Below, piece by piece: positions 5,137 to 16,592 of a stretch of 38,796 bases of DNA (its first letter is position 1; the number at the start of each line of letters is the position of its first letter). The notes beneath the pieces were generated by a model. That model worked only from the letters and a program-made list of their open reading frames with translations. It was not told the origin of the DNA and did not search any database. Source of the DNA: Planctomycetia bacterium (GTDB lineage Bacteria; Planctomycetota; Planctomycetia; Gemmatales; Gemmataceae); assembly GCA_016795185.1 (NCBI GenBank), contig JAEUIF010000824.1, positions 1 to 38,796 of the forward strand, written 5' to 3'. The translations under genes and the position numbers were made by a program.

Positions 5137-8100
5137 TCAAGGCGAAGCCTTGCCGAATTGCGCCTCCAGGCGGACGTACTGCGGTTCCTTGCGGATCGCA
5201 TCGAGCGCACTGTCCTTTTGTACGGTGTCGCGCCAGAACGAGGTGCGGTCCTTCTCGGGTCGCAGATCCAGGGACTTTTGCAGCAGTTCCACGGCGCGGA
5301 TGCGATAGCGGCCCGCCAGCTTCTGGTGTTCCGGTTCCTTCGTGTCGGCGGCTGCCTTGGCGGCGAGCAAAGCGTACACGCAAGCGATGTTGAAATGGCG
5401 CACCGACGACTCAGGTGCCCGCCCGAGCGCTGCTTCACCGTCCTTGATCGCCTCTCGGTAGTGCCCGAGATAGGCGTGCGCCTGCGCCCGGCCGTTCAGG
5501 GCAAACTGGTCCTTCGGTTCGAGCCGCAGGGCCTCCTGAAAGTCCCGAAGCGCCAGCGGCCAGGCCTGGCATTCCAGGTAAGCCCAGCCGCGTTCCACGT
5601 AGAGACTGGCGTCCGGTCCGGCGACCAGATAGCGGGAAAAGTCATCCACGGCGCCACCAGGATCACCTTGCTGGCCGCGCGCCCGACCGCGCAGTCGGTA
5701 AATCTCCGCCACGGGGCGGCCTCTCTCCAGGTAGCGGTCGCACGCCTGGACGGCTTCGGCAGCCCGGTCCAGTTCGAGCAGCGCCCGCACCTGAGTCAGA
5801 CACGCCTCCGTGAAATCGGGCCGCAGTCGTAGTGCCGTGCCCGTGGCTTCTACGGCCTCGGCAACCTGTTTGTTCGCCAGCAGCATCTGGGCGCGCTCCA
5901 GGTGGTCGTCCGCCAGGCTGGCACTATCAGCCGGTTGAAGCTCGATGGCTCCGTTCATGTGCCGGAGCGCCGCCGGCGCGTCGCCGCGCGCCAGAGCGAG
6001 CCGGGCCTGGAGTCGATGGAAGGAAGCCGCCTTCGGAAAACGCTGCGCTGCCGATTGCAGCTGCGCCTCGGCCTCGTCCCAACGTTTGCCAGCCAGGTAG
6101 GCCGCGATCAGCGATTCGTAAGCCGGGGCCCGGTCGGGCATCAGGACGATGGCTTGCTTCAGATCGGCCACCGCATCGTCCAGCTTGCCTTGCCGATTCC
6201 GCATGCCGCCGCGATAGACCCACAGCACGTAGCGGGCTTCCGGCGACGGATTCAGTTGCAGTGCTTCCGCGAAATCCGCCTCGGCCAGCACGAATTCACC
6301 CGCGCCGCCATGCACCATGCCCCGCAAGAGATAGAGCCAGGGAAAGTCCGGCTGCCGGCTCAAGCACGCGGTCAGGCTGGCCCGCGCTTCGGCGGGGCGC
6401 TGCGAGTCCAGGTAGCGGAGCGCCAGGAAAAACTGCGCCCAGAAATGATCCGGCTGGAGGCGCAGCGTGTGATCGAAGGCCACGATTGCTTCAGTCATAC
6501 GGCCCCGCTTGTACCACTCGTCGCCGAGCAGGAAGAAATCGACGGCATGAACGGGCTTCAGGGCTTGCGCGCGTTCGGACTCTTGCGCGGCGCGTTCAGC
6601 CTGGCCGAGTTGATCCAGTAAGCGCGCCCGCCGCAAGTAATATGCCTGACTGGCCGCGCCGACCTGGGCCGCGCGATCCAGTACGCGCAGACCTTCCTGG
6701 AGGGCCGCGGTCTGTTGCTTCGCTTGCTGTCCCGGCGTGGACTGAGCCTTGACGTCCGCCAGAATGAGCAGCAATCCGTAGCAGCCTTCAACAATCTCCG
6801 TCAACTCCTCCTTGCGGTAATGGTGATTCCAGACAATGGCCTGCGTGCCGTCCACGGCGACGCCGACCGTGTTGAGCGCGTCCCGGATGGCGGCGTCGGT
6901 CGTGTGCAGGTTGGCCTGGAGGTCGAAACTGGTGAACAGCGTGCCGTACTGGAACAATGCCTCGTCCCGTTTGATGGTGAAACGCTTGTACTGCTCCTGC
7001 GCCTGCCGCCGTGCGGCCAGGGCCTCCAGGTGGCGCGCGGTCTCGGCGCGCAGGCCCTCGGCGGTGGCCTTCAGGTCCGTCAATGCCGGTTCCGTGCCGA
7101 TCTGCGCCAGAGCGCTGGTGAGGTGCAGATTGGCATTCTGCCAGTCCTCAACCTTGGTCGCCGCCTCACCGGCGAAGACCAGCTTTTGTGCATCCGTCCG
7201 CAGCAGAGCGAGTCGCTGGTTCTCGCGTTCCCGCGCGGCACGCATCAGCAGCAGGACCGCCGTCAAACCGACCAGGGCGACGGCGATGGCCGCGGCGCAG
7301 GCGGTGACCAGGGTCCGGTGGCGCTTGATCCACCGACGGGCGCGGCCGTACCACGGTTCACGCCAGGCCGTGACTGGCTCGTCGGCCAGCCAGTTTTCCA
7401 GATCGGCGGCCAGGGACTGGGCCGTCGGATAACGGCCTTCCGGTTGGACGGCCATGGCCTTCAAACAGATGCCTTCCAGAGCGCGGGGCACGTCGGGCTT
7501 CACGCGGCGCGGCGGGGGAAAGTCGCCTTGCCGGACCCGCTCCAGGATGTGGGCGACCTCGCGCCCCTGGAATGGAGCGTGGCCGGTCAGCACGCAATAG
7601 AGCGTGGCACCGAGGCTGTAGACGTCGCTGGGCGGCCCCAGACGGTCGAGCTCGCCAGCCGCCTGTTCCGGACTCATGAAGTGCGGTGTACCCACCGCCC
7701 GGCCCATTTGCGTGGCAGTCGCATCGTCCTCGGCTACGGGGTGCAGGGCCTGGCCCGCGGGCGCGGGGCCGTTTTCCGGTTGCGCCAGCGTCCGGGCCAA
7801 TCCCCAGTCGACGACCAAGGTCTCGCCGAATTCGCCGAGCATGACATTCGCGGGTTTCAAGTCCCGGTGCAATACCCCTCGGTTGTGGGCATAGGCGACG
7901 GCGTTGCAGATGCCGATGAACTGCCGCAGCAGCTTGTGAAAATCGAGCGCACGCTGGCCCGGATCGCGGCCCGAGCTATCGGCCTGATGAAAGCGCGCGA
8001 TGGCTTCCTGGAGGCTGTCTCCCTTGATGAAGCGCATGGCATAATAGGGACGCCCATCGGCATAGTGCCCCAGGCCGTACACCGGCACGATGCCGGGATG

Positions 8101-8664
8101 TTCGAGCCGGCCGGTGATGCGCGCTTCGCGCAGAAACCGCTCGCGCGATTCGCGGTCATCGGCGTAACGAAACTGGATCTCCTTGAGGGCGACTTCGCGG
8201 TCGAGTTCGCCGTCGTGTGCCACCGATACCTGACCGAGACCGCCCTTGGCATGCAGCTGTAGCACGTGATAACGCATGCCGCCGCGCGCGGCGGACGACT
8301 CGGACGACTCGGCATGGCCCTCGCAGAGCGTATTCTGGTCAACGAATCCCGGCGCCTGGCTGGCGTAAGGGTCCGTGGCTGCCGGCGACGATGGCGCATC
8401 ACGGGACACCGGAGGCGCGCCGGGCGGAAAAGTAGCGTAGGCGTCCGCCGGCGGAACGGGATTCAATTCTGGGGGATGGTTGACCAGTTCGGGAGAAGGG
8501 CGACTGGGCCTGACCGGCGCGACGTCGGTCGGCACCCGGGGCGGTGGCAAACCGGTCGCGAACTCATCCGCCGCCGAATCCGTGCCCGCTTCGGTCGAAG
8601 GCACACCGGACAGGGAAGCATTGGGGTCCGACGGCGAGTCGGCAGGCGCGGCTGATTCGGCCAT
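5137..8664 (-). CDS. Membrane Ser/Thr protein kinase with C-terminal TPR repeats
   Basis: This is a Hanks-type kinase of 1175 residues. Residues 1-125 are Pro/Ser-rich and probably disordered. The kinase domain spans about residues 131-425: a glycine loop (AKGGLGQV), the ATP-binding lysine in VALKEI (about K161), the catalytic loop HRDLKPANVM (Asp near 268), and an activation segment starting VVDWGLA, so the usual DFG is DWG; then MSPEQAAGE. One membrane segment follows at about residues 451-474. The rest is a chain of TPR-like repeats (for example AIVAFDHTLRLQPDHFWAQ), expected on the other side of the membrane. The ATG at 8664 is chosen over an in-frame GTG at 8676 because GGTGGAG ends six bases before the ATG and overlaps that GTG. 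It probably couples an extracytoplasmic or scaffold signal to phosphorylation; substrates are unknown. Confidence 0.92.
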   Translation of the reverse strand: MAESAAPADSPSDPNASLSGVPSTEAGTDSAADEFATGLPPPRVPTDVAPVRPSRPSPELVNHPPELNPVPPADAYATFPPGAPPVSRDAPSSPAATDPYASQAPGFVDQNTLCEGHAESSESSAARGGMRYHVLQLHAKGGLGQVSVAHDGELDREVALKEIQFRYADDRESRERFLREARITGRLEHPGIVPVYGLGHYADGRPYYAMRFIKGDSLQEAIARFHQADSSGRDPGQRALDFHKLLRQFIGICNAVAYAHNRGVLHRDLKPANVMLGEFGETLVVDWGLARTLAQPENGPAPAGQALHPVAEDDATATQMGRAVGTPHFMSPEQAAGELDRLGPPSDVYSLGATLYCVLTGHAPFQGREVAHILERVRQGDFPPPRRVKPDVPRALEGICLKAMAVQPEGRYPTAQSLAADLENWLADEPVTAWREPWYGRARRWIKRHRTLVTACAAAIAVALVGLTAVLLLMRAARERENQRLALLRTDAQKLVFAGEAATKVEDWQNANLHLTSALAQIGTEPALTDLKATAEGLRAETARHLEALAARRQAQEQYKRFTIKRDEALFQYGTLFTSFDLQANLHTTDAAIRDALNTVGVAVDGTQAIVWNHHYRKEELTEIVEGCYGLLLILADVKAQSTPGQQAKQQTAALQEGLRVLDRAAQVGAASQAYYLRRARLLDQLGQAERAAQESERAQALKPVHAVDFFLLGDEWYKRGRMTEAIVAFDHTLRLQPDHFWAQFFLALRYLDSQRPAEARASLTACLSRQPDFPWLYLLRGMVHGGAGEFVLAEADFAEALQLNPSPEARYVLWVYRGGMRNRQGKLDDAVADLKQAIVLMPDRAPAYESLIAAYLAGKRWDEAEAQLQSAAQRFPKAASFHRLQARLALARGDAPAALRHMNGAIELQPADSASLADDHLERAQMLLANKQVAEAVEATGTALRLRPDFTEACLTQVRALLELDRAAEAVQACDRYLERGRPVAEIYRLRGRARGQQGDPGGAVDDFSRYLVAGPDASLYVERGWAYLECQAWPLALRDFQEALRLEPKDQFALNGRAQAHAYLGHYREAIKDGEAALGRAPESSVRHFNIACVYALLAAKAAADTKEPEHQKLAGRYRIRAVELLQKSLDLRPEKDRTSFWRDTVQKDSALDAIRKEPQYVRLEAQFGKASP

Positions 8665-8741
8665 GAAAGTCTCCACCTATCCATCCAAAATTGCCGACCT
8701 GCCCGTGATTATGGACCGGCCGCAACGCACGGGACAAGTGG

Positions 8742-8788: not shown

Positions 8789-10600
8789 CTATTTCCCCCC
8801 CAGTTCCCAGACCGGATCGAAGTGTTCCGGCTCTTGCACCAAGGCGTTGGCGGCGCGCGCCAGTAGGATGAGTGAAGGGCCGTCGAGCGGGAAGTCGCCG
8901 AGTACCCGGCCCAGGGAAGCAGCCGACTGGCGGAACTCGCCGCGCTCGAACTCCGCCAGCGCCGCTTCGTAGCCCGTCCTCAGCGCCGCCCAGTCCGCGG
9001 AAGCGGTCGGTGCCAGTTCGTATAGGGCCACTGGCTCCGGAATGTTGACGACGCGCACCTGGCAGAGCCGCCGCGCGCGGAATTCATCCCCCAGGCGCGC
9101 GCGGGTGGCCTCGGTGATCAGCAGCGGGGTCTTGAGGTACTTGGTCGCGCCCTGGACGCGGCTGGCGAGGTTGACGGTGTTGCCCAGGGGCCCATACATC
9201 CGTCGGCGGGTGGAGCCTGTGTTGCCTACTCGCGCCGGGCCGGTATTGACGCCGACCCCCACCGCCAACGGTGCGCCCAGCGTGCCGCGCCAGCGCTCGT
9301 CGAGAGCGGGCAAGCATTCGAGCATCCGCAGGGCCGCCCGGCAGGCGAGCGCGGCGTGGTCCGGTTGCGCTTCCGGAGCGCCCCACATGGCCATCAACTC
9401 GTCGCCGATGTAGTTGACCAGCACGCCGCCGTGCTCGTACACACAGGCGGATAGAGCTTCCATCACGCTGCCAATCCATTCAAAAGTCTTGACCGGCCCG
9501 AGCTGGCTGCTGATGCGGCTGAAACCGCGGATATCGCAGAACAGCAACGTGACATCCGCGTCGCGGCCTTCGAGCAAGTCGGGCTGTGTCGCCAGCTGGC
9601 GCGCCAGTTGCGGCGTGAAGTACTGCTCGAACTGCACCTGAGCGCGCACGGCAGCCTGTTCCTGCTCGACGCGCGATAGGCCCGCCGCCACGCCGCTGGC
9701 GAGCAGTTCGACGAGCATGGCGTCGAGCTTGCTCACGGGGCGTGCGCCGGCATCGCCTTGCCGGCGGTCGCCGTACAGTGCGCCGATCACGTCGCCGTTG
9801 CGGTCGCTGATAGGCGCGGCTACCACGGCCTTGATTTCGACCAGGCTGGCCGCGGCCTGCGCCGGCGTGTTCCAGAAGGTGCGCTTTTCTTCAAGGACGC
9901 GGCTGAGCACCTGCCGGCTCGGACGCCAGGAGGCGTCGGCGCGACCGCCATCGGCTTGGGCCGCCACGTGCCAATCGTCGCCGTCGCGCACGAGTACGCG
10001 CCCGGAATCCATGTCCACCAGATCGACCATGGCGCGGGCGGCCTTGTCGAAAAAATCCGAAGCGCCCGCGGCACTTTGCAAGACGGCCAGCGCCGTGTGC
10101 AGCCAGGGCATGAGCGTTTCGAGCGAGATGCTGTCCGTGCTGGCGGAGAACTTCTTCAGCTGCCGCGACATTTCTTCGCGGCGCGGCGCCCGCGTGACTT
10201 CGACCAGGCTTTGCAGCGGCGCTGCCGTCGCGTCGTCGGCTTCGTCTGGCTGAAAGCGCACCGACCGCTTGCCGAACGACACGACGACGGGCAACCGGAC
10301 CTCGCGCGCGCCGCCGGGCGCCAGTTGGCTGCCATCGGTCAGACGCACGGGCAGGGTGTTGCTCAGGTTCTGGAGCCGGGCGCGGTCATTCGCCAGCGGT
10401 TCGATGCGCAGGTGTTTACGCGAGAAGGAAGTTTCGTCGAGGCGCGCGATCACGACCCGCCAGACGCCAGCGATCCGGGCGGTGTGGTAGGGAGGCGCTT
10501 CCTTGTCGGTGGCTCGGCCCAGTTCCACGATGCCTTGCACATCGGCCGTGTGAACCAGCTGATGGTCGTCGAAAACGCGGACTTGCCAGCGATCGGCCAC
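8789..10600 (-). CDS. FHA-GAF-class III nucleotidyl cyclase
   Basis: This soluble signalling protein has 603 residues. Residues of about 20-115 look like an FHA domain (GR at 28-29, SRKH at 60-63), which would bind phosphothreonine, perhaps from the neighbouring kinases. Residues of about 160-310 resemble a GAF domain (DMDSGRVLVRDGDDW, VVAAPISDRNGDVIGALYGD). Residues of about 345-530 are a class III cyclase catalytic domain with both metal aspartates (CDIRGFS D356, IGDELMAMWG D400) and the transition-state pair N477/R481 (GNTVNLASR). The two substrate-selecting positions are not canonical: N396 stands where adenylate cyclases have Lys, and the Asp position of YDIWG reads YGPLG. Substrate therefore cannot be assigned. 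The start is GTG with GGGAGG eight bases upstream; no ATG fits better. Confidence 0.88.
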   Translation of the reverse strand: MADRWQVRVFDDHQLVHTADVQGIVELGRATDKEAPPYHTARIAGVWRVVIARLDETSFSRKHLRIEPLANDRARLQNLSNTLPVRLTDGSQLAPGGAREVRLPVVVSFGKRSVRFQPDEADDATAAPLQSLVEVTRAPRREEMSRQLKKFSASTDSISLETLMPWLHTALAVLQSAAGASDFFDKAARAMVDLVDMDSGRVLVRDGDDWHVAAQADGGRADASWRPSRQVLSRVLEEKRTFWNTPAQAAASLVEIKAVVAAPISDRNGDVIGALYGDRRQGDAGARPVSKLDAMLVELLASGVAAGLSRVEQEQAAVRAQVQFEQYFTPQLARQLATQPDLLEGRDADVTLLFCDIRGFSRISSQLGPVKTFEWIGSVMEALSACVYEHGGVLVNYIGDELMAMWGAPEAQPDHAALACRAALRMLECLPALDERWRGTLGAPLAVGVGVNTGPARVGNTGSTRRRMYGPLGNTVNLASRVQGATKYLKTPLLITEATRARLGDEFRARRLCQVRVVNIPEPVALYELAPTASADWAALRTGYEAALAEFERGEFRQSAASLGRVLGDFPLDGPSLILLARAANALVQEPEHFDPVWELGGK

Positions 10601-12556: not shown

Positions 12557-15500
12557 TCATTTCCAGAATTCCTTTTGTCGGGGTTGCGGCTTGGCGACGG
12601 GCACCGGCACAGTCGGTCCCTGGGCGTAACCTTGCAGCAACTCCTCGGACTTCGCCCAGAGTGCCGCCACCTCGGTAGGATCGGGCCGCTTGCGATCAAG
12701 CAGTTCGGCCAGCAACTCTGCCAGGCCCGCCAGTTCCTCGCCGGGCACCAGCACCTGCTGCGCGTCCTGGATGAACAGAGCCAGCCGTTCGGCCAGGACG
12801 TGTAGACTGGCCAGCCTATCGCCGAGACGGTTCTGCCGTAGGTCAGCGAGCATCGACTTGGCCCAACGACGCAGCCGCTCTTCGGGCTCCTCGACGGGTG
12901 TGATCAGGATGATGATGGCCTGCCCGTGCTCAGTTGGTTCGAGCTTCACTTGCAGGTCGTACTGACGACCACCTACCACATATTTGATTGATCCGTGCTG
13001 GTCCGCGTGTTTTTCCGCGATGTCGATACCGGCCAGGAACTTGATGCGGTTCAACAAGCTCGAATACAGCCGGATCGGCGGCGCATCGCGTTCCACCCAT
13101 TGCCCATCGATCCGATAGCGGACCGGAATGCGGTCGGCCAAGGGTGCGAGGTGAATTTCCGGACTGCGCAGGTTGATTGCTTCGAGAATCATCAGGTTCA
13201 CCAGCTTGACGATCGCGGTATGCTTCGGATTCGCCCGGTGGTTGTCACTGGACCCGCCTTCGGTGAAGTCGAGCGCGGTATCGGTGAATTCGCTGATGCA
13301 GCTATCGACCGAATCCCGATCCTTGCCATCGAAATGGCGGTCGATGGCTTCCTTGAGTTCGGCCGCCGGCGCTTGCACCGGAACGATGTCCTTGTCGAGA
13401 ATGAAGCGCAGCTTTTCGATCGTGTCCTGATCGTGGGGGTTGCTCATCAGGACGTGCAGCGTGCCGTTGCCGTCGTCGTGCAACGGCAGCACCTGGTTCT
13501 CGCGGGCCACCGATTCGGGGATTTGCTCGATGACCGACGGCGGCATGGTCACGTCCGCCAGGCTGTCGATGGCTTCGATTTCTTCCTCGGCTTCCTCGCA
13601 TTCCTCGATGGCCAGCTCGAATTCAGAGCTTTCCAGGTCGGTGTCAGCTGGGTCGATAGGTACGGCCTGCGAGCGCGATTCATCCCCCAGATCGTCGGCA
13701 TCGAAGTCGGTGAAGATGTCCTTGCGGTTCGCGTTGCTCATTCCAGGCACCAATGGAGCGCTGGCGGCAGCCGGCCGCGGTGCGGACGGCGGAGCAGGCG
13801 GCAGTGCATCACGCGCCGCATCGTCCAGTGCGAGCATCGTCTTTTTGCTCACCCGACCGCCAACATTGATCTCCTGGAGCACCTGCTTGGCCAGCATCGT
13901 TTTTCTGGCTGCCGACTTGCCGGCTTCTGCATTGCTTTTGGCTGCTGGCGTCTCGGCGAGACGGCAAGACAACTCAAACTCCGCAGTCGGAATGCCCAGT
14001 ACCCGGTCCGTCTTCTCCAGCATGTCCCAGCCGGCGGGCGGTTCGACCGCCTGCGTGACCTTGTGCAGTCGGCCGCCATCGTTGACGACCTCGGCACGGT
14101 CCACTGCCACGAACGCCGTGAAACGGCAGAGGACGCCGAAGCGCAGCGATGTTTCCACGATCTGCTGTTCGACCAAATGTGGATTGCCGACGCCGATGGC
14201 GTAGCGGTCTTCGAGTTCGCGAATGCGACCACGCGCCCAGACGCAGGGCACCGCCAGGCCAGGACTGCGGCGCGGTGCCAGCTTCTGCGCCCAGGGCTTG
14301 CCGGCGACATCGCGGCCTTCGACTGCTATCGAGCCTTCGGCCGCTCCAGCGTAGCGACCGAAAATGAACAATGGCGCGCCTGCAAAAAGGTCGGGCAGCC
14401 GGCCGGGCACCAGCGAATCCGCCTGAATGTTCAGGCCCGCGGGCTTGACCTGCACGTCGGAAAGAAGCGCGGTGCCGATCTGGCGGTGAATCTGCTCCAT
14501 CACCTCGTCGAGCCGGACTTCGGATTCCACCGATTCGCAGCTGCCGCCGCCCAGCGCCGCAAGGCGCTTCAGGAACGCATCGTTGGCGGCCATGTCGATG
14601 CCCAGGGTAAAGATGCGCAGCCGGCCGACGCGCGTGCCCAGCGTCTGCAAGAGTTGGTCTTCGTTGCCGACCTGGCCGTCGGTGACGAGGACCAGGATGC
14701 GGTCGCGCGTGGGGTCGTCGCCGCCGAGCGTGGTCAGGGCGAGTTCGAGCGGCCGGGCCATTTCGGTGCCATTCCTGCTGTCGATCTTGGTCAGGAATTC
14801 CACGGCCTGGAAGCGCTGCCGGTCGCCGCCGTGTACCAGGCCCCAGCCGTTGAAGGGCTTCGGCACTTCGACGGTGTCGTCGAAGGCGTAGACCGTGAAG
14901 CGGTCGCGCTCGGTCAGCGTGTCCACCATGCGACTCATCGCCCGGCGGGCGCAGACCATTTTCCAGCCTTCCATGCTGCCGGAGCGGTCCAGCACGAAGA
15001 TCACGTCGCGCGGCCGCTGGGCCTTCTCGACGCCCTGCGGCGGCACCAGGGTCAGGAGGAAGGTGCCTTCGGGGCCGCCGTCGTCGGGCCGCAGACTGAG
15101 CGCGGTTTGCAGTGCTTCGCTCGCCACGCGGAAACGCAGGATGAAATCGCGGTTGAGCCGTTCGCCGGGGTGCAGCCGGATGACGCGCACGCCGTCGGCG
15201 TTGGCCTCGTGCATGACGGAATGCAGGCTGGAACGGAAGTCGCGCATCAGCAGGCTGCCGGGCTGGATCGCCACGGTGAGAGAAAGCTGCACCGGGTTCG
15301 GATAGCCCGGCAGCAGCACTGGCGGCGAGATGCGCGAGGCGTCGGGCACCGCATCCGTATCACTGGCGACACCGCTGCCGACCGAGGGACCGGACAGCGG
15401 CTTGCCGGGTATGTAGCGCGGCGCGACCACGAGCGGGAAGCGGAAGGTCGCCTCGCCGTCGCTGTACTGCAAGGGGCCGACGAGCATCAGCGAGATTTTC

Positions 15501-15931
15501 GCCGCCTCGCCCGGCAGCAGATTGCCGACGCGAATGCTGAAGACGCCCGAACGCTCCTCCTCGGTGATCGCGGCCCGGTAGCCGCTCTGGATGGCCTGCT
15601 GGTATTGTCGGCGCGCCTCGCCGCGCTCGCGCAGCACGCCTTCGGTGACCCGGCCGTTCACTTCCATGCGGAAGCGCGTGACTGCCGCGCGGTCCGGCAA
15701 CGGGAAGATGTAGGTCGCCTCCAGAGGTTCATCAAAGGTGTTGATGAAGGTCTGACAGATGGACACCTCGCCGAGCAGGCCGTCAATGCGGGCCTGCACG
15801 TGCATGGCCTGCAAGGGCAGCTGGCCCCGTGCGGTGGACAGCCCGCCGAAACCGGCCTCCGGGCCGGCGGCCTGGGCGACCTGGGACGGTTGCAGTTCAT
15901 CTTCCCGGAGCAGGGCAAGCGGCTGAGTCAC
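12557..15931 (-). CDS. VIT-vWA protein fused to T2SSE_N and the N-terminal (non-ATPase) domain of GspE/PilB
   Basis: The protein has 1124 residues. Residues of about 38-155 are a VIT domain (the vault/inter-alpha-trypsin module that precedes vWA in ITIH-like proteins). Residues of about 308-490 are a vWA domain with a complete metal site (D315-x-S317-x-S319, T389 in NGTEMA, D418 in VTDGQVG). Residues 690-790 are a Pro/Ala linker and a strongly acidic stretch. Residues of about 794-868 resemble the T2SSE_N/MshEN fold of type II secretion and type IV pilus ATPases (SVARENQVLPLHDDGNGTL). Residues of about 905-1012 match the N2 domain of GspE/PilB (AIVKLVNLMILEAI, RYRIDG, NRIKFLAGIDIAEKH). The similarity stops just where the Walker A domain should begin; a helical tail replaces it. 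There is no signal peptide. The start is GTG with GGAG seven bases upstream and overlaps the MerR stop by 4 nt. Role unknown; metal-dependent protein binding linked to a secretion or pilus complex is inference. Confidence 0.88.
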   Translation of the reverse strand: MTQPLALLREDELQPSQVAQAAGPEAGFGGLSTARGQLPLQAMHVQARIDGLLGEVSICQTFINTFDEPLEATYIFPLPDRAAVTRFRMEVNGRVTEGVLRERGEARRQYQQAIQSGYRAAITEEERSGVFSIRVGNLLPGEAAKISLMLVGPLQYSDGEATFRFPLVVAPRYIPGKPLSGPSVGSGVASDTDAVPDASRISPPVLLPGYPNPVQLSLTVAIQPGSLLMRDFRSSLHSVMHEANADGVRVIRLHPGERLNRDFILRFRVASEALQTALSLRPDDGGPEGTFLLTLVPPQGVEKAQRPRDVIFVLDRSGSMEGWKMVCARRAMSRMVDTLTERDRFTVYAFDDTVEVPKPFNGWGLVHGGDRQRFQAVEFLTKIDSRNGTEMARPLELALTTLGGDDPTRDRILVLVTDGQVGNEDQLLQTLGTRVGRLRIFTLGIDMAANDAFLKRLAALGGGSCESVESEVRLDEVMEQIHRQIGTALLSDVQVKPAGLNIQADSLVPGRLPDLFAGAPLFIFGRYAGAAEGSIAVEGRDVAGKPWAQKLAPRRSPGLAVPCVWARGRIRELEDRYAIGVGNPHLVEQQIVETSLRFGVLCRFTAFVAVDRAEVVNDGGRLHKVTQAVEPPAGWDMLEKTDRVLGIPTAEFELSCRLAETPAAKSNAEAGKSAARKTMLAKQVLQEINVGGRVSKKTMLALDDAARDALPPAPPSAPRPAAASAPLVPGMSNANRKDIFTDFDADDLGDESRSQAVPIDPADTDLESSEFELAIEECEEAEEEIEAIDSLADVTMPPSVIEQIPESVARENQVLPLHDDGNGTLHVLMSNPHDQDTIEKLRFILDKDIVPVQAPAAELKEAIDRHFDGKDRDSVDSCISEFTDTALDFTEGGSSDNHRANPKHTAIVKLVNLMILEAINLRSPEIHLAPLADRIPVRYRIDGQWVERDAPPIRLYSSLLNRIKFLAGIDIAEKHADQHGSIKYVVGGRQYDLQVKLEPTEHGQAIIILITPVEEPEERLRRWAKSMLADLRQNRLGDRLASLHVLAERLALFIQDAQQVLVPGEELAGLAELLAELLDRKRPDPTEVAALWAKSEELLQGYAQGPTVPVPVAKPQPRQKEFWK

Positions 15932-16554
15932 GAGTGGTCTCCTTCCGGACGCGGGCCGAGCAAGCGGCGCGCATGGAGCAACTTGAGCAGAGGCGCCGCC
16001 ACGGCGCGAAGCGCCTCGAGGTCGTCGGTTTCCAGCGGGCGAAGCGTGGACAGCAGCAACGTGACGTCGGCGGCGAGCGGCACTCCCTGCAAGGGGACGT
16101 GAGGTTGGGCGGAGGCCGCTATTTCAAGAGGGCGCTGGTCGCGCGGAGGTTCAGCCGGCCGCGCTTTCCAGAATTCTTCGCGCGTTTCTGCCTTCACCTC
16201 CACTCCCTTTTCCGCAGGGGAAAAAGGGAACAGCGGGAGCCGAGCGATCTCTGCGAGCTTGCGGTCGGTCTGGCCCAGTAATTTCTCCTGAATCTCCGCC
16301 AGGGCCAGGCCGCGCGCCTGTAGCCGCTTCACCGCGACCAACTGCAAGAGATGGCGTCGCGCATAGAGCGCCGTCCGGCCGCGCATCTGGGCCGGGCGGT
16401 CCAGCAGGCCGAGCGTCGTGTAGTAGCGAATCGTCCGCAAGTCGGGGACCGAGCGCACGCGCCCGTTGGGCGCGCCGTCGTAATCGCTCGCCAGGGCCAG
16501 GGCGACCTGCGAGCCCAGCTCGTCGATGGTCCAGAGTTGGCCGGTGTTGCTCAT
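15928..16554 (-). CDS. MerR-family transcriptional regulator
   Basis: The protein has 208 residues. The DNA-binding head is recognisable by LWTIDELG (helix 1) and LRTIRYYTTLGLLDRP, followed by RGRTALYARRHLLQLVAVKRLQARGL in two pieces, the typical MerR wing and helix pattern. About 20 extra residues lie between the first helix and the RYY motif. The effector half has no cysteine at all, so it is not a metal or thiol sensor of the MerR/SoxR kind. It ends in a Leu-rich helical region (TLLLSTLRPLETDDLEALR). Its TGA overlaps the GTG start of the vWA gene, so the two are translationally coupled. A TTGACA promoter with a palindrome between its boxes lies directly upstream, suggesting autoregulation. 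No Shine-Dalgarno sequence precedes the ATG. Confidence 0.88.
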   Translation of the reverse strand: MSNTGQLWTIDELGSQVALALASDYDGAPNGRVRSVPDLRTIRYYTTLGLLDRPAQMRGRTALYARRHLLQLVAVKRLQARGLALAEIQEKLLGQTDRKLAEIARLPLFPFSPAEKGVEVKAETREEFWKARPAEPPRDQRPLEIAASAQPHVPLQGVPLAADVTLLLSTLRPLETDDLEALRAVAAPLLKLLHARRLLGPRPEGDHS

Positions 16555-16563
16555 GTCTTGACT

Positions 16564-16592
16564 AATTTAACACTGTTATATGACAGTGTCAA
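16564..16592 (-). promoter_or_regulatory. MerR-operon promoter with palindromic operator in the spacer
   Basis: On the minus strand TTGACA (16592-16587, perfect) is followed after 17 nt by TAAATT (16569-16564, 4/6). The spacer carries ACACTGT-N6-ACAGTGT, a perfect 7-bp inverted repeat that extends to 9 of 10 matching positions (16567-16592). An operator between -35 and -10 is the classical place for MerR-family proteins. The -10 ends 9 nt before the ATG at 16554, so transcription should start almost at the start codon, giving a leaderless mRNA. Confidence 0.75.

Follow-up and report, generated by a model that had tools for sequence, protein, structure and literature searches.

The window analysed here is a stretch of 38,796 nucleotides from a Planctomycetia bacterium of the family Gemmataceae (assembly GCA_016795185.1, contig JAEUIF010000824.1). 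It contains, on the minus strand at 12557..15931, a gene whose 1124-residue product reads in one intact frame and consists of a VIT-vWA core, a piece related to pilus motor ATPases and a helical tail. As far as sequence comparison can show, a duplicate of the front end of PilB1 from the same genome (the N2 domain and half of the N1 domain) has been inserted between the core and the tail in this Gemmataceae lineage. The source is this PilB-like ATPase, encoded beside PilT, and an origin from a secretion GspE is disfavoured. Judged from its relatives, the protein belongs to a large family with a variable C-terminal slot and represents the variant of one lineage.

Domain layout of the protein

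All features described below lie on the minus strand. The VIT domain occupies residues 39-147 (15491..15817; Pfam, 6.7e-33) and is modelled mostly with high confidence; the vWA domain occupies residues 308-463 (14543..15010; Pfam VWA_3, 1.3e-13). A preliminary description of the window had proposed a complete VIT-vWA pair with an intact metal site. Both domains are recovered, and the five residues it named (D315, S317, S319, T389 and D418) are present in the protein and invariant in 44/44 aligned family rows, the window protein included. By sequence, the closest solved relative of this half is PARP4 (6e-31), and the top fold match of the core is ITIH1. The score against TIGR03788, a family of marine proteobacterial sortase targets, is 404.5 bits, below the curated cut-off of 551.65.

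A linker that is predicted to be disordered (residues 641-784, 13580..14011; predicted local distance difference test, pLDDT, ~30) leads to the C-terminal half, whose closest solved relative by sequence is PilB (2.1e-29). The second half of the PilB N1 domain (N1C) is found at residues 785-895 (13247..13579; MshEN/T2SSE_N PF05157 at 789-870, 1e-19), and the N2 domain at residues 896-1011 (12899..13246; T2SSE PF00437 at 903-1007, 1.1e-14), where the match covers only profile positions 5-109 of 370. Two NCBIfam profiles also match, type_IV_pilB at residues 790-1009 (profile positions 61-285 of 564) and gspE at residues 801-1009 (2-212 of 486), with scores that are close to each other and both below cut-off. 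The earlier claim of a T2SSE_N-like domain followed by N2, which a lack of any profile match in residues 794-1012 would have undone, is borne out by these searches.

The protein has no ATPase domain of the PilB/GspE kind, and its 1124 residues contain no match to the Walker A pattern GxxxxGK[TS]. The preliminary description was right in this respect, but not in having the protein stop just before Walker A: the chain runs on for ~112 residues, through predicted helices to a terminal FWK. The tail, assigned from the model and from family likeness, comprises four predicted helices at residues 1016-1103 (12623..12886), and the FWK itself is read from the sequence at residues 1122-1124 (12560..12568). 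The helices begin directly after the last N2 strand (pLDDT ~50 for the first, ~84-91 for the other three); the PilB piece is thus flanked by the core on one side and the tail on the other. The N1-N2 stretch is poorly predicted because the alignment used for the model contained no PilB sequences, and its resemblance to N2 is limited to the succession of helices and strands in the second half.

Origin of the insert

The insert is 56% identical to PilB1 of the same genome, which is encoded in a PilB1-PilT-PilB2 cluster where PilT scores above its NCBIfam cut-off. A 27-row tree with 226 columns groups the insert with its own PilB1 with support of 100/99, which shows common descent of the N1C-N2 piece with PilB. 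With only the N1C columns, which are fewer, the placement of the insert loses support, and PilB1 is again the nearest row. Since the NCBIfam PilB and GspE scores are so close, for the insert and for the paralogue alike, the source is named PilB because of the ranking of PDB entries and the neighbouring PilT gene. A secretion GspE as source was considered and is disfavoured, given that the insert groups with the PilB-like paralogue adjoining PilT. The proposal of a GspE/PilB front end therefore stands as regards an N1C-N2 piece without ATPase, with a pilus-type PilB1 in place of a secretion GspE as its source. Beyond the insert, family sequence resumes: the tail is 35% identical to that of a relative in genome G067 (E=5e-5).

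Homology to PilB begins in the middle of N1, and so the half that carries the cyclic di-GMP (c-di-GMP) motifs is absent rather than degenerate. The RLG-type motifs had been reported as not visible, and indeed the c-di-GMP model NF053729 has no match in the window protein (PilB1 scores 36.9 bits against a cut-off of 38, and PilB2 51.9); what is missing, however, is the whole motif half. Sensing of c-di-GMP by the window protein is rejected on this ground.

What the insert has kept and lost

Among residues that are invariant in 21 PilBs, N1C keeps 29/37 and N2 keeps 32/49, and six of the eight changes in N1C are conservative. The losses include three arginines: R257, R271 and R286 of Geobacter PilB correspond to S981, Q994 and L1009 in the window protein (aligned through the PDB chain, with an offset of 20 counted manually). 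In the Geobacter enzyme, as described in PMC5424180, R286 binds the phosphates of the nucleotide; the glutamate of the ASP box is bound by R271 and, in the open state, paired with R257. With no ATPase domain and these three arginines gone, the insert, judged by its residues, cannot serve as an ATPase or a working motor subunit. Comparison with PilB1 gives dN 0.37 and dS 1.42 (non-synonymous and synonymous divergence), which are rough values with dS near saturation; the frame is unbroken.

The merR / VIT-vWA family

The family set consists of the best 80 of 431 relatives from a scan of the genome collection. These 80 are spread over Planctomycetota, many Actinomycetota, Myxococcota/Deltaproteobacteria and Competibacteraceae. 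Within the order, 7/102 genomes contain a VIT-vWA match that is strong (E up to 1e-70), and among genomes drawn from the phylum 52/392 contain such a match, the window's own genome being included in both counts; many of the phylum matches are distant, at 31-36% identity. The window protein shares with the family a VIT-vWA core that is alignable over ~640 residues and has an intact metal site, a C-terminal helical bundle (the first helix being of low confidence in the window) and a terminal FW[K/F/R].

In the window, a merR-family gene of 208 residues lies directly upstream (15928..16554; Pfam MerR_1, 8.9e-10). Its stop overlaps the start of the VIT-vWA gene (GTGA), which is a GTG preceded by AAGGAG. 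The same arrangement occurs in 72/80 family loci; of the rest, five are too near a contig edge and three (L148, L184 and L196) have no MerR. In another set of 35 loci, MerR is found in 16, and the loci that lack it are mostly distant relatives. The earlier suggestion that a MerR gene might always precede the fusion is thus nearly true of the family and is not a feature of the fusion. The PilB N1-N2 piece is matched by no open frame in the 80 family loci or in these other 35 loci, so that a search for the same architecture, as proposed in the preliminary description, returns one genome only. In sister genome G001 (contig C475; L040:4517-5461) there is also the C-terminal part of another VIT-vWA protein, ending in KDDFRK and with no VIT in frame, which may be a fragment or a pseudogene.

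The largest neighbour clusters of the 80 loci, found at 36 and 26 of them, overlap merR in position and resemble shadow frames of that gene. A homocysteine-methyltransferase-like gene lies downstream in 13/80 loci and is taken for synteny of related actinomycetes. In the window, the minus strand downstream of the VIT-vWA gene encodes a protein that has a guanylate cyclase domain and matches GAF weakly (8789-10600) and a Ser/Thr kinase with TPR repeats (5137-8676).

Operator and FW motifs

The merR gene is preceded by a promoter-like site, TTGACA and TAAATT separated by a 17-bp spacer (16564..16592), with a pair of ACA[CG]TGT half-sites forming a putative operator, ACACTGTCATATAACAGTGT, between them at 16570-16589. 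In a search with a half-site spacing of 6, this operator has one exact match in the 9.5 Mb genome, at the merR promoter, and the control has no hits; a second exact site at this spacing is absent, and one site with one mismatch lies at C1266:650. Such uniqueness suggests a self-contained unit. For the comparison between loci, 73 upstream regions were used (the window, G001 and 71 loci). Half-site pairs with at most one mismatch and a spacer of 6, 7, 17 or 18, values chosen after inspecting the data, occur in 66/73 regions, whereas ten shuffles average 0; 63/73 have them at spacer 6 or 7. A MerR regulon was also considered: in 14 other genomes, 20 sites are found when one mismatch is allowed, 8 at a merR promoter, compared with 36 for a reversed-pattern control, of which 19 are in G057 and G060. 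As the operator-like sites are fewer than the control sites, there is no sign of such a regulon. A 17-bp promoter spacer is described as optimal in PMC8113463, and hence repression by this MerR seems more likely than classical activation.

The MerR linker contains an FW motif (residues 128-129, 16168..16173) that is present in 70/73 rows (missing in L132, L139 and L199), including those whose partner has no FWK end (L129, L133, L142 and L157). In the VIT-vWA proteins, FW followed by at most six residues ends the chain in 64/80 loci. The 16 loci without a near-terminal FW include three that run off the contig, six mycobacterial ones and two with PP2C; others are L135 and L146, with a membrane segment by eye, and L177, with an unrelated end. 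L193 and L204 carry tail variants (FWK ten residues from the end, WWK). A single pocket may recognize the MerR motif as well as the terminal one. In the model of a 754-residue Actinocrispum relative, a well-predicted VIT-vWA core is followed by a disordered linker and four helices at 663-743 (block means 89-97, falling to 66 at the end).

Other modules in the slot and PilB fragments elsewhere

The C-terminal slot holds different modules in different relatives. Kinase sequence precedes the terminal FWK in three: L130:3150-4343 has a kinase domain (1.6e-41) in which the lysine and the DFG aspartate are absent by eye (the contig is short and part of its sequence is repeated), and L128:7888-8631 and L158:7813-9129 have weaker pieces below the Pfam cut-off (0.0015 and 4.1e-6). 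The mycobacterial members L142 and L157 carry DUF4349. In two Gemmataceae-type relatives, at L053:6143-9205 and L052:160-3225 (the same contigs as L133 and L129), a circularly permuted PP2C is fused to the VIT-vWA core; the NCBIfam Stp1 profile matches at positions 122-230 and then 2-119 of 232 in one, and at 122-231 and then 4-118 in the other. The L158 kinase is possibly permuted as well, with part of the C-lobe ahead of part of the N-lobe, by eye only.

PilB front ends without a motor are found in other proteins too. From matches in 23 Gemmataceae genomes, 20 regions were picked by frame length, of which one encodes an ATPase and the other 19 have no Walker A. Eight of the 19 combine a TIGR02996 domain (all eight over its cut-off) with N1C-N2, nine combine N1C with a tentatively SPFH/vault-like part, and two have a full N1 with a proline-rich part and are membrane-anchored by eye. 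The first two architectures occur in 8/23 and 9/23 genomes, respectively. In a 55-row tree of N1C, each of them falls on one branch and the third kind does not; the tree calls for five label changes, two of them imposed by well-supported branches. A shared origin of the window insert with the TIGR02996 proteins is disfavoured (approximately unbiased test, p=0.017, in a tree that held five of the eight, without the divergent L110, L111 and L112). Taken with the label changes, this indicates, as far as the trees go, that PilB was captured without its motor at least twice. As aligned, the equivalents of R257 and R286 are missing in 8/8 TIGR02996 proteins, the R257 column being less sure owing to an insertion in that stretch. 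The preliminary description knew of no system with the window protein's architecture. The complete fusion was found in one genome only, but its ATPase-less PilB front end is a recurrent element in Gemmataceae.

Some of these proteins deserve mention for their own sake. In L115 to L123, N1C is fused to a conserved SPFH/vault-like-looking protein in nine Gemmataceae genomes; a profile of eight of the nine (L115 left out) ranks HflK (0.036) and major vault protein (0.05) below a chance-like TFIID match (0.017). One TIGR02996 + N1C-N2 gene adjoins archease and RtcB by Pfam (L112:2186-3659, L112:675-2144), and in L106 and L109 archease-like frames, recognized by eye, adjoin the corresponding gene.

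Interpretation

An adaptor, decoy or regulator role, as first proposed, remains the best class of explanation, with the refinements that the source is the cell's own PilB1 and the protein a variant of a larger family. We favour, without giving it quite even chances, a VIT-vWA adaptor that is part of a MerR-controlled unit and has, in this lineage, acquired the docking half of the cell's own PilB. The VIT-vWA gene follows merR as the second cistron of the unit. The insert would act as a docking module, its N1C/N2 scaffold offered to PilM-, PilC- or PilZ-like stator, platform or effector partners. Docking would be the natural remaining function because, according to PMC11656802, PilB N1 likely meets the stator, and PilZ was bound to PilB N1 in Xanthomonas. 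The insert has no ATPase domain and cannot supply N2 arginines to a neighbouring motor subunit, and the vWA protein would be tethered to, or compete at, the seat of the pilus motor. Two further steps are weaker: the FW motifs might allow the VIT-vWA protein to retain or free MerR, and occupancy of the insert might thereby feed back on expression of the unit.

Several results weigh against this adaptor reading. The difference in retention between N1C and N2 (78% versus 65%) is small, and the branch of the insert is 1.22 against 0.12 for PilB1 in the 27-row tree, a tenfold length that also fits decay. The R271 equivalent is kept in 6/8 of the TIGR02996 proteins. The fusion is found in one genome only (the contig of congener G001 ends at residue 185), and in a further set of loci MerR is found in 6/8, with none in the two close loci L040, a fragment, and L041. 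Docking of the FWK in cis finds no support, since the FW tail is loose in both models (pLDDT 35 for the window FWK, 42 for the FWKR of the Actinocrispum relative).

It is possible, if unlikely, that the insert is a passenger, a PilB1 fragment drifting in a permissive linker and tolerated as long as core and tail still work. Confinement to one genome, the long branch, the loss of 25/86 PilB-invariant residues in N1C-N2 and a slot that accepts several other inserts would all be expected of it. Against it stand the unbroken frame and a rough dN/dS of 0.26 overall (perhaps ~0.5 if nearly all dN fell on the insert branch and dS were split equally), as well as the persistence of ATPase-less PilB fragments in the two other Gemmataceae architectures.

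A dominant-negative action, which we consider rather improbable, would have the N2 of the insert pack on the PilB1 ATPase domain in the hexamer, displace a real subunit and stop the motor. The packing of N2 on the next chain's ATPase domain is described as the principal inter-chain contact of PilB (PMC5424180), and both derivation from the co-resident PilB1 and loss of the nucleotide-site arginines suit such a poison subunit; yet the PilB-invariant N2 stretches ASDIH and RRPQDGR are also altered, and the packing may have been lost with them.

Little probability is attached to the broader proposal of a cross-phylum merR + VIT-vWA sensory unit, wired through FW and with exchangeable baits in its slot that were taken from signalling and motor enzymes (PilB front end, dead kinase, circularly permuted PP2C), in which the window protein would be a pilus-motor decoy that reports attack or state. 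Lower still do we place an integrated decoy in the strict sense, in which the insert would mimic PilB to catch attackers of the pilus motor, such as phage PilB inhibitors, and the vWA protein would report the catch. Tip, which is encoded by a phage, maps to the N2 domain of PilB (PMC11656802), and in other family members this slot holds a kinase that seems dead or a phosphatase in rearranged order. The PP2C variant, however, keeps its metal-binding residues by eye, hence not all inserts look bait-like, and Padloc returns no defence model for the window protein, for its MerR or for L155, a plain relative. It also finds nothing for L116 and L106; L130 matches many kinase-based models, and L133 matches one model weakly (2.7e-5).

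Finally, an assembly artefact joining two genes can practically be dismissed: although the contig comes from a 1500-contig assembly and GC content is lower in the insert (0.589) than in the core (0.677), family sequence is in frame on both sides of the insert, terminal FWK included, and PilB1 (GC 0.616), at only 56% identity, is too different for the insert to be its stray copy. The frameshift or gene-fusion error that the preliminary description had raised is likewise rejected, because the single frame is free of stops and flanked by this family sequence.

Significance and comparison with known systems

If the adaptor reading is right, it can be traced here how the docking half of a cell's own pilus motor came to be reused by an unrelated regulator, and the window protein is a testable candidate for listening to, or interfering with, the pilus machine. 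The prediction for the insert is clear: ATP use and c-di-GMP are lost, and the partner surface is possibly kept. More generally, the MerR / VIT-vWA unit is widespread and apparently undescribed; among the openly licensed PMC papers listed, none deals with the pair by title and abstract. With its own operator and FW in both proteins, it would make the binding partners of bacterial VIT-vWA proteins directly testable.

The window protein resembles PilB/GspE ATPases (TIGR02538, TIGR02533; PDB 5TSG, 3JC8) in having N1C and a complete N2, but it lacks the ATPase domain, the first half of N1 and the three nucleotide-site arginines of N2. Like the MshEN c-di-GMP receptors (PMC5013675), it carries an N1-type domain outside a motor protein. 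The fusion partners given there are REC, HD-GYP, CheA, CheX, cyclases, Ser/Thr kinases and a glycosyltransferase; vWA is not among these, and the window protein, unlike those receptors, lacks the c-di-GMP half and has N2. The vWA-MoxR ternary conflict systems offer a parallel in that their vWA proteins, in planctomycetes and actinobacteria, have interchangeable partners (PMC7159879), whereas MerR and the VIT domain are not mentioned in the available text of that source; in the window, none of the nine neighbouring open reading frames has a Pfam match to MoxR. With vault PARP (PARP4), ITIH heavy chains and Dictyostelium Vwa1, the window protein shares the VIT-vWA core, and it differs from them all in being bacterial and MerR-coupled, with a helical FWK tail and a motor-derived insert.

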